IMG/VR virus record: IMGVR_UViG_3300030090_000984
Span: 1-23,151 of that record
Direction: 5' to 3' (one strand)
Length of the DNA stretch: 23,151 nt
Source of the DNA: a virus
Numbering within the stretch: position 1 is the first letter of the stretch; each line of letters begins with the position of its first letter. Under the pieces are notes generated by a model. The model did not search any database. It was not told where the DNA came from and saw only the letters and a list, made by a program, of their open reading frames with translations. Both the position numbers and the translations under genes were made by a program. This document shows, piece after piece, positions 16,273 to 21,886 of the stretch.

Positions 16273-16280
16273 CATAGGAT
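16261..16280 (+). repeat. Perfect 10-base tandem repeat across a stop codon
   Basis: AACATAGGAT occurs twice without a gap. The first copy supplies the last codons and the TA of the TAA stop; the second provides one arm of the hairpin immediately downstream. It looks like a recent slippage duplication. Confidence 0.9.
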
Positions 16281-16310
16281 GGGGGTGATAACGTAGCCCC
16301 CACAACCTAT
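16274..16310 (+). terminator. Strong hairpin after first early gene, terminator-like
   Basis: ATAGG-A-TGGGGG pairs with CCCCCA-CAA-CCTAT around an 11-base loop, giving 11 base pairs with one asymmetric bulge. The gene stop is just upstream. The trailing sequence TTTAATTATTAATTATTA is U/A-rich but not a clean U-tract, so termination would be partial; an mRNA-stabilising 3' hairpin is the alternative. Confidence 0.5.
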
Positions 16311-16393
16311 TTAATTATTAATTATTACACTTAATGTCATAAGAATGTAGATAGAATGTCGCAGATAGTTTATTCTGTTATATATACGTCTAT

Positions 16394-16422
16394 TTGCATA
16401 ACTTTGGCATACACTTTATAAC
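16394..16422 (+). promoter_or_regulatory. Candidate promoter before the 78-residue gene
   Basis: TTGCAT at 16394-16399 (3 of 6), 17-base spacer, TATAAC at 16417-16422 (5 of 6). The -10 sits in the loop of the TTTGGCA/TGCCAAA dyad, so repressor binding or cruciform formation there could block it. The rest of the 186-base gap (16311-16393) holds no further convincing element. Confidence 0.4.
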
Positions 16423-16432
16423 ACTTGCCAAA
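16403..16432 (+). repeat. TTTGGCA/TGCCAAA inverted repeat
   Basis: Perfect 7-base arms (16403-16409 and 16426-16432) with a 16-base loop, followed by AATTTTTAAA. It could act as a weak intrinsic terminator or as an operator around the TATAAC box. The left arm and following TACACTTT recur, with a 4-base insertion, at 17526-17544. Confidence 0.55.
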
Positions 16433-16458
16433 AATTTTTAAACAAGGAGATATTAGTA

Positions 16459-17488: not shown

Positions 17489-17527
17489 TCTATTGGATGG
17501 CCACCAAGAAATTAACGCAAGTGTTTT

Positions 17528-17562
17528 TGGCAGTGATACACTTTCCAAAACGAAAACTGCCA
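17528..17562 (+). terminator. Terminator-like hairpin with a competing stem
   Basis: TGGCAGT (17528-17534) pairs with ACTGCCA (17556-17562), followed by TTCTTTTA. An alternative stem TTTTGG (17525-17530) with CCAAAA (17545-17550) shares the left arm, so only one can form. That is the layout of an attenuator, but the 21-base loop makes an efficient terminator doubtful. Confidence 0.4.
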
Positions 17563-17715
17563 TTCTTTTAGTCTATACATATCTCCTGCGACTAGAGCGG
17601 TCCAGTCGTATACAGTTAAGATTAAATGGTAGACTATTAACCAGAGAACAATGCTGATTATAGGTTGTAGCCGTAATGAACACGTGGTCCTATGTATTGT
17701 TACTCAAACAAGGTT

Positions 17716-17745
17716 TGCTCTGTACCTTGACACTCAAACAGAGCA
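17716..17745 (+). repeat. 8-base perfect hairpin TGCTCTGT/ACAGAGCA
   Basis: Arms 17716-17723 and 17738-17745 around a 14-base loop that contains TTGACA, the -35 of the candidate promoter. A protein binding the dyad would cover the -35 box, so it could also be an operator. Confidence 0.6.
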
Positions 17746-17756
17746 TATGGTATACA
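17727..17756 (+). promoter_or_regulatory. Strong sigma70-like promoter with extended -10
   Basis: Perfect TTGACA (17727-17732), an 18-base spacer, and TGG-TATACA (TG at 17748-17749, hexamer 17751-17756), an extended -10. The transcript would start near 17762 at the head of the hairpin 17759-17820 and lead to the winged-helix gene at 17850. This is the best promoter match seen in the window. Confidence 0.6.
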
Positions 17757-17758
17757 AA

Positions 17759-17820
17759 ATGGGGTGGATAAAAACAACGTCATGTTTTGTTGGATTCCGC
17801 GATTCACACATTCACCCCAT
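17759..17820 (+). promoter_or_regulatory. Leader hairpin of the winged-helix gene
   Basis: ATGGGGTGGAT (17759-17769) pairs with ATTCACCCCAT (17810-17820): ten Watson-Crick pairs and one G-U. The interior holds a CAAC/GTTG or AAAAC/GTTTT mini-stem. It lies at the predicted 5' end of the transcript and 30 bases from the ATG, so it may protect the mRNA or regulate translation. Confidence 0.55.
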
Positions 17821-17849
17821 AAATTTTAAATAACAATAAAGGAGAGATA

Positions 17850-18146
17850 ATGTACTATAATACAACAAATGAAACTGGTAATGATTTGAAAGAATCACAC
17901 AAAAAAGCAGAATCACAACAGAAAAAGATACTTGATATATTTAAGACAAGTAAAGAAGCATCACCATCACAAGTAATGTTAGCATTGCCTGTTGGTACTC
18001 TAATTACCTCTGTTCGTAGATGTATTACTGATTTGACTAAAGAAGGACACCTTGAAAAGACTACAAGAAAAAGAAAAGGTATTTACGGAAGACCAGAATA
18101 TATCTGGAAACTTCATTCTTTAGAATTTATGCACAACAATAATTAG
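17850..18146 (+). CDS. Winged helix-turn-helix DNA-binding protein
   Basis: 98 residues; ATG preceded by AAAGGAGAGATA. After a charged N-terminal helix (about 10-30), residues 36-68 form a helix-turn-helix of the winged type: ASPSQVMLALPVGTLITSVR then RCITDLTKEGHLEK. Residues 69-88 give a beta wing with KRKGIYGRPEYIWKL. The pattern of recognition helix, GHL turn and Arg/Tyr-rich wing is characteristic of phage winged-helix modules. It probably binds DNA as a regulator of the early arm, or recruits a replication component. With its own strong promoter it is a good candidate for the protein acting on the palindromes nearby (inference). Confidence 0.75.
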   Translation: MYYNTTNETGNDLKESHKKAESQQKKILDIFKTSKEASPSQVMLALPVGTLITSVRRCITDLTKEGHLEKTTRKRKGIYGRPEYIWKLHSLEFMHNNN

Positions 18147-21694: not shown

Positions 21695-21790
21695 AAAGGG
21701 GAGTGAAAGACATTTGTTCCTTTCGATTTTTTAATAATTCGTATGTGGGAAGAAAAGGTTGATAAATTGGTTGGCATCAAACTCCCCTTT
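21695..21790 (+). ncRNA. Candidate three-way-junction RNA after the SSB-like gene
   Basis: P1: AAAGGGGAGT (21695-21704) with ACTCCCCTTT (21781-21790), ten perfect pairs. P2: GAAAG (21705-21709) with CTTTC (21720-21724), abutting P1. P3: TTGAT (21759-21763) with ATCAA (21776-21780), abutting P1 on the other side. P2 and P3 are joined by 34 bases that include a T6 run. The closely stacked helices are like a riboswitch or small RNA, but no known class is recognised. Confidence 0.45.
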
Positions 21791-21821
21791 TACTTTTATC
21801 CGATTGGTTGTAAATTAGATA

Positions 21822-21886
21822 GAGGGCGGTACTTATTTATATAAGTCTCTCTTCTCTCTCTTCTACTACCAAGAACGGCCGCCCTC
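21822..21886 (+). ncRNA. GC stem-loop with nested hairpin and pyrimidine tract
   Basis: GAGGGCGG (21822-21829) pairs with CCGCCCTC (21879-21886). Inside is ACTTAT-TTAT-ATAAGT (21831-21846), then the 19-base all-pyrimidine run at 21846-21864. No U-tract follows, and the next gene starts 25 bases later after TATAACACAAAGG. It could be an operon-internal leader structure, a protein-binding RNA or an accumulating small RNA. Confidence 0.45.

Follow-up and report, generated by a model that had tools for sequence, protein, structure and literature searches.

The non-coding gap of 361 bases at 17489–17849, which separates two plus-strand open reading frames (ORFs) in the 23,151-nt stretch of viral DNA analysed here (the window), very probably holds an array of autonomous structured RNAs. 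Compared with its relatives, the gap resolves into at least five RNA modules in series, B to F. The modules have distinct identities and a base-paired architecture maintained by compensatory changes, they are coherent in strand and shuffled among loci, and the loop of module D carries a palindrome that switches between variants. Taken as a whole, the gap is best read as a transcribed cassette array of such RNAs, probably acting in trans, a reading that we consider probable from the sequence comparisons. The original prediction had described a structured non-coding region, large for this genome, with attenuator-like stems and a strong promoter. The size of the gap is as stated, its structured non-coding character is strongly supported by comparative evidence from relatives, and all of the predicted paired segments exist, yet they belong to separate modules rather than to a single leader. 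The elements of the gap are as follows.

17489–17516, + strand: segment A, a short TTGG..CCAA hairpin-like leader directly 3' of the 92-aa ORF
17519–17562, + strand: module B, H-type pseudoknot (covariation, rarity by chance)
17569–17636, + strand: module C, stem-closed domain (29 distinct members, compensatory changes)
17644–17705, + strand: module D, stem-closed domain (29 distinct members)
17709–17745, + strand: module E, H-type pseudoknot (covariation; contains the predicted -35 hexamer)
17760–17819, + strand: module F, stem-closed domain (core kept within differing closing stems)
17839–17844, + strand: Shine-Dalgarno-like AAGGAG of the 98-aa ORF, which starts at 17850 (from the sequence)

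Segment A is kept in close relatives only and is the weakest part of the array.

Single-sequence folding of both strands gained little: the gap folds with a z-score of -1.6, and 9 of 100 shuffles fold equally well. The original prediction held its paired segments to be unlikely together by chance. Single hairpins are unremarkable in this respect, a Watson-Crick stem of at least 8 bp arising in 90 of 300 dinucleotide shuffles, whereas any H-type pseudoknot of 6+6 Watson-Crick pairs appeared in just 17 of 3000 shuffles, and modules B and E are the sole two such pseudoknots on both strands of the whole 23-kb window. No family of Rfam 15 was matched in the window at the gathering threshold, and across 30 array loci the same search returned three tRNA-Met genes and no module; sub-threshold matches at a permissive threshold look like chance. 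A tRNA array was considered and rejected, ARAGORN finding no tRNA in the window. The same program found none in 27 of the 30 array loci and, in the other three, one tRNA-Met away from the array; a single tRNA-Met lies upstream of the array in L011 (1246–1318), L013 (85–157) and L023 (1119–1191).

Modules B and E are H-type pseudoknots

In module B, stem S1 (AAGTGT/ACACTT, 17519–17524/17538–17543) and stem S2 (TGGCAGT/ACTGCCA, 17528–17534/17556–17562) enclose a U-rich loop 1 and an A-rich loop 3. The two stems predicted around 17525–17562 thus both exist, but they are not mutually exclusive as had been proposed, because they have no base in common and interleave to form an H-type pseudoknot. 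Among 11 distinct sequences, three pairs distributed over both helices are changed on both sides, and the covariation score exceeds those of all 500 shuffles. Module B was present in 41 loci in an earlier-stage seed-profile survey.

Module E is likewise formed by S1 (17709–17714/17724–17729) and S2 (17716–17723/17738–17745). The latter, TGCTCTGT/ACAGAGCA, had been read as an 8-base hairpin; the pairing exists, as helix 2 of the pseudoknot. Across 16 distinct sequences 99.5% of cells are paired, and two pairs change on both sides, one in helix 1 (A-U to U-A) and one in helix 2 (U-A to C-G), again with a covariation score above all 500 shuffles. The same earlier-stage survey placed module E in 55 loci. 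B and E together thereby contain five pseudoknot pairs with compensatory changes. A high-GC match to the E pattern in L102 looks like chance and was rejected.

Stem-closed modules combine a conserved core with variable stems and inserts

Compensatory changes, whose absence from relatives had been named as grounds for abandoning the original prediction, are numerous, and pairs that carry them occur in families C, D, F, G, K and L; all covariation counts given here refer to sequences rather than events, the contigs being uncultured, many of them closely related and not all independent. Module C is closed by P1 (17569–17575/17630–17636), followed inward by P1b (ATCT 17581–17584/AGAT 17619–17622) and P2 (17587–17593/17604–17610), the end of which is an exchangeable insert. 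Ten alifold pairs have compensatory support; P1b, for instance, changes from AUCU/AGAU to AUUU/AAAU in L017 and to AUUC/GAAU in L098. The P1 arms pair at 164 of 175 positions, compared with a maximum of 158 after permutation. P2 carries 24 different inserts of 15–73 nt, whose ends pair at 111 of 120 positions (permuted maximum, 97), and in L124 this variable hairpin holds a miniature D-like element, one module being nested within another.

Module D consists of an outer stem (GAG/CTC plus ACAAT/ATTGT) and an inner hairpin (ATAGG/CCTAT). Module F is closed by P1 (17760–17769/17810–17819), which is the hairpin TGGGGTGGAT/ATTCACCCCA that the original prediction placed at the head of a transcript, and which does exist (GGGGTGGAT/ATTCACCCC). 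Inside it lie the hairpin AAAACA/TGTTTT and two conserved segments, AACGTCATG (17776–17784) and GGATTCCGC (17792–17800); in L139 and L140 this core, AACGTCATG and GGATTCCGC, is found inside wholly different closing stems.

Covariation is clearest in module G, which stands in for C in near relatives. Among its 28 distinct members, with 17 different 5' arms, the closing stem is paired at 222 of 224 positions (permuted maximum, 185) and the second stem, P2, at 135 of 140 (permuted maximum, 128). Judged by these sequences, module G has the best claim to be a new RNA family. Its core, CTGACCGAAGTATGAA ... GAATAGTAGGAGG, occurs in L083, L088, L115, L118 and L153–L170. Module K (GCTGGGATGGACTA ... 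CATCCCAG; L074, L091, L115, L130, L133 and L137) has seven compensatory pairs among eight distinct sequences. An anti-Shine-Dalgarno-like CTCCT in module C and a Shine-Dalgarno-like AGGAGG in module G could be either a ribosome contact or chance.

The module D loop carries a switching palindrome

A 6-nt palindrome occupies a fixed position in the module D loop, CACGTG at 17681–17686 in the window, and each of the 15 canonical variants has GATATC, CTCGAG, CACGTG, AATATT or GCATGC (15/15). The few variants without a palindrome are a GATTC deletion form, those of L023 and L095, and short forms. A viral-collection scan in which the loop bases were left free recovered the D hairpin within other non-coding RNAs of larger size, where it bears a sixth palindrome, TCTAGA; the non-palindromic matches of the scan apparently lie in protein-coding sequence. 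One such larger RNA, GATGGTCACCGATGAGCC ... GGGGCTAACCATC, holds the D hairpin with TCTAGA in L175, L182, L183, L190, L191 and L193, and is apparently akin to a GTGAGAG/CTCTCAC-closed module of L077 and L104.

Since the palindrome switches yet stays palindromic, and its halves cannot pair within one hairpin loop, this pattern speaks for the pairing of one molecule with another. For OLE and GOLLD, palindrome changes of this kind are evidence of intermolecular loops (PMC12286853). Self-pairing of module D through a kissing loop is, on this sequence pattern, an evenly balanced proposition. Some module C inserts carry AGTCTAGACT, which becomes AATCTAGATT in L125.

Modules are gained, lost and reordered as units on a single strand

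A search with the downstream protein yielded 71 viral loci, and comparison with these relatives splits the gap into blocks, each of which a given relative has, lacks or replaces as a whole. Module C is missing from L004, where the adjoining sequence is retained (TTCTTT|AACCAGAGA), and module G occupies its place in L012 and L007. L005 and L008 lack modules C, D and E, with F placed directly after B and the promoter-like site of E absent; L006, L010 and L011 have further modules 3' of F. When the viral collection was scanned for the patterns of modules E, C, F, B, K and G and of the D loop, many more contigs turned up, with other gene neighbourhoods and many additional modules. Automated clustering with RNAfold and BLAST suffered from poor ORF calls and over-merging and was set aside in favour of seed profiles, by which 35 module seeds were catalogued, about a dozen of them (B–H, K, L, P and others) with at least eight distinct members.

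Before the last scan, modules had been found in 103 loci, some of which overlap on one contig; 80 of these have at least two modules, and a series can comprise up to eight or nine different ones. Their order is permuted: B-C in the window becomes C-B in L095, C-D-E is matched by E-H-I-C in L015, and module J lies 3' of F in some loci and of E in others. Two order rules were found, D then E (38/38) and M then E (8/8), so that certain modules may each form half of a larger RNA.

In none of the 103 loci do modules occur on both strands. Furthermore, 181 module hits lie between ORFs that are both on the module strand and none between ORFs both opposite, with ORF calls being approximate. A test of wobble pairs is biased if folding is done on the sense strand, and a strand-symmetric version was used instead, which weakly favours the sense strand (17 G-U versus 9 A-C). 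Gene orientation is the better argument for the strand, because wobble pairs alone cannot settle it.

The terminase was matched in 37 of 48 module-carrying records, at identities from 98% down to 29%. The cores of C and E stay nearly identical despite terminase identity down to about 30%, and the module cores are probably under strong selection, because they persist almost letter for letter at that distance while closing stems and inserts turn over. A nucleotide search of 50,697 isolate phage records for similar arrays or modules gave nothing convincing (one 22-base chance match), an exact match to the module C core pattern was found in none of 84,980 prokaryote species genomes, and searches with terminase and portal reached distant isolates only. 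The character of the sequence and its relatives suggest that the source phage is probably marine.

Alternative explanations

In the original prediction, the winged-helix gene is controlled by an attenuator and a promoter in the gap, the upstream part of which may encode a small RNA. The array does directly precede the 98-aa gene in the window and in many relatives, and TTGACA (17727–17732), with TATACA 18 nt downstream and an extended -10, is promoter-like. The winged-helix call for the 98-aa protein is itself plausible from its structure model (helix-helix-helix-wing, pLDDT 81), with winged-helix regulators among the best Foldseek matches, all of them weak (E > 0.001); the protein belongs to PHROG 9069, whose function is not annotated, and Pfam has no match for the ORFs upstream and downstream of the gap. 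However, a consensus scan lists no promoter on the plus strand of the gap, and TTGACA lies inside pseudoknot E. Several other E members have CCATGAAG, TTGTGA or TTGGCA at this position and retain the helices, so the hexamer is likely a structural by-product of E in this group. A riboswitch or attenuator, which would combine an aptamer with an alternative terminator or a sequestered ribosome-binding site and serve one gene, was rejected in view of compatible pseudoknot helices, a gap with no terminator-like site found in it, and modules that are not tied to one gene. Nor does control of the winged-helix gene appear to be the main role, because modules B–F precede different genes elsewhere, in varied orders, and are freely replaced in relatives; F, moreover, persists without E. 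We regard this model as very unlikely. Least probable of the alternatives are DNA-level mobile repeats, MITE- or REP-like with terminal inverted repeats. Such elements would account for the gain and loss of whole modules and for their inverted-repeat ends, but the ends of transposons are conserved, whereas the terminal arms here differ within a family with compensation; both orientations never occur in one locus (0/103), and the pseudoknots and internal covariation would be left unexplained.

The main rival has the modules act in cis on the processing or stability of mRNA: they would be intergenic stabilisers, processing sites or translation spacers of a polycistronic early mRNA and would shuffle with its genes. 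Compact pseudoknots are able to block exonucleases or ribosomes, the modules invariably share the strand of the genes beside them, and they sit between genes of apparent operons. Against these points, up to eight or nine modules follow one another although a single stabiliser would suffice, neither module-specific conserved cores nor a switching palindrome would be required, and the modules are not bound to particular genes; we consider a cis role unlikely, although the least so of the alternatives. A further proposal is that the modules are mimics or decoys of RNA antitoxins, similar to those of type III toxin-antitoxin systems, with pseudoknots that neutralise RNA-activated or endoribonuclease defences of the host. 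H-type pseudoknots with A-rich loops are found in ToxI, CptI and TenpI, and B and E share that fold, with an A-rich third loop in each; the accessory region is hypervariable. Escape of phages from type III systems is reported (PMC5449768). Type III antitoxins, however, are tandem repeats of one pseudoknot, whereas B and E are present in one copy each in the window; no Rfam family is matched, and most modules are of types other than such pseudoknots. No toxin-like neighbour was recognised: a ToxN-like endoribonuclease was not found downstream, where the neighbouring ORF is the PHROG 9069 protein with its winged-helix-like model. This reading is, in our judgement, distinctly improbable.

A cassette array of RNAs that may act in trans

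In the preferred reading, the array consists of short modules (~40–170 nt) that fold on their own and share the strand of the early genes around them. The core of each is conserved, its closing stem varies freely, and an inner hairpin is often exchangeable. As whole units the modules are gained, lost, reordered and nested, and they are shared among distantly related uncultured phages. They would be transcribed with the operon and perhaps processed, and the palindromic loop of D, together with the loops of some C inserts, could give rise to homodimers or inter-module contacts. Action in trans is somewhat favoured, because many unrelated modules with cores of their own stand in series, travel independently of particular genes, nest within one another and have loops that probably self-pair. 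The rapid turnover of modules in a hypervariable early region suggests a role in phage-host conflict, for example as decoys or inhibitors, which we put forward tentatively. The furthest-reaching version, in which these phages possess more than 30 unrelated small RNA families, exchanged as shuffled and nested cassettes and acting during infection in part as multi-RNA assemblies held by kissing loops, is rather unlikely as a whole, and its figure of more than 30 is an estimate in which some seeds rest on one or two distinct sequences. If true, the array would be to RNA what an island of accessory genes is to proteins. With no module matching a known RNA family, these phages seem to possess a large repertoire of RNAs yet to be explored. 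Being small, folded and easily made by synthesis, the RNAs are within reach of experiment, so that their structure, self-association, catalysis and partners are directly testable.

Relation to known systems

Individual large RNAs of phages are known, as are phage tRNA arrays and the stable RNAs of T4, both of which group small structured RNAs in a variable early region. We know of no case in which phages exchange many different short structured RNAs as an array of cassettes, and no description of such an array was found in the open-access literature. Nearest in kind are GOLLD and ROOL, the tRNA arrays and the antitoxin pseudoknots of type III systems, none of which is the same kind of object, because each fails a defining feature. 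The modules described here are not tRNA-like, fall into many families and form arrays that contain no tRNA. GOLLD and ROOL are likewise non-coding RNAs of phages and prophages with pseudoknots and kissing loops, for which palindrome covariation has served as evidence of self-association (PMC12286853). They are, however, single RNAs of ~650–800 nt or more, in contrast to a shuffled array of short unrelated modules; the Rfam search gave no match to either family, and the modules fall short of the length of more than 500 nt that marks them. The manA and wcaG riboswitch candidates are structured RNAs of marine phages as well, but occur singly in the 5' UTRs of metabolic genes (PMC2864571), whereas the present modules form arrays with no match in Rfam.

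Structured elements in other gaps of the window

Two further stem-closed domains share another intergenic gap of the window.

21696–21790, + strand: module AI, AAAGGGGAGT/ACTCCCCTTT-closed domain (one relative locus)
21822–21886, + strand: module AJ, GAGGGCGG/CCGCCCTC-closed domain in the same gap as AI (relatives)

Copies of the two modules (21696–21886) occur in a few relatives. The gap at 16273–16458, 3' of a 97-aa ORF, contains a hairpin of the GGGGG..CCCCC type (GATGGGGGTGATAACGTAGCCCCCAC).
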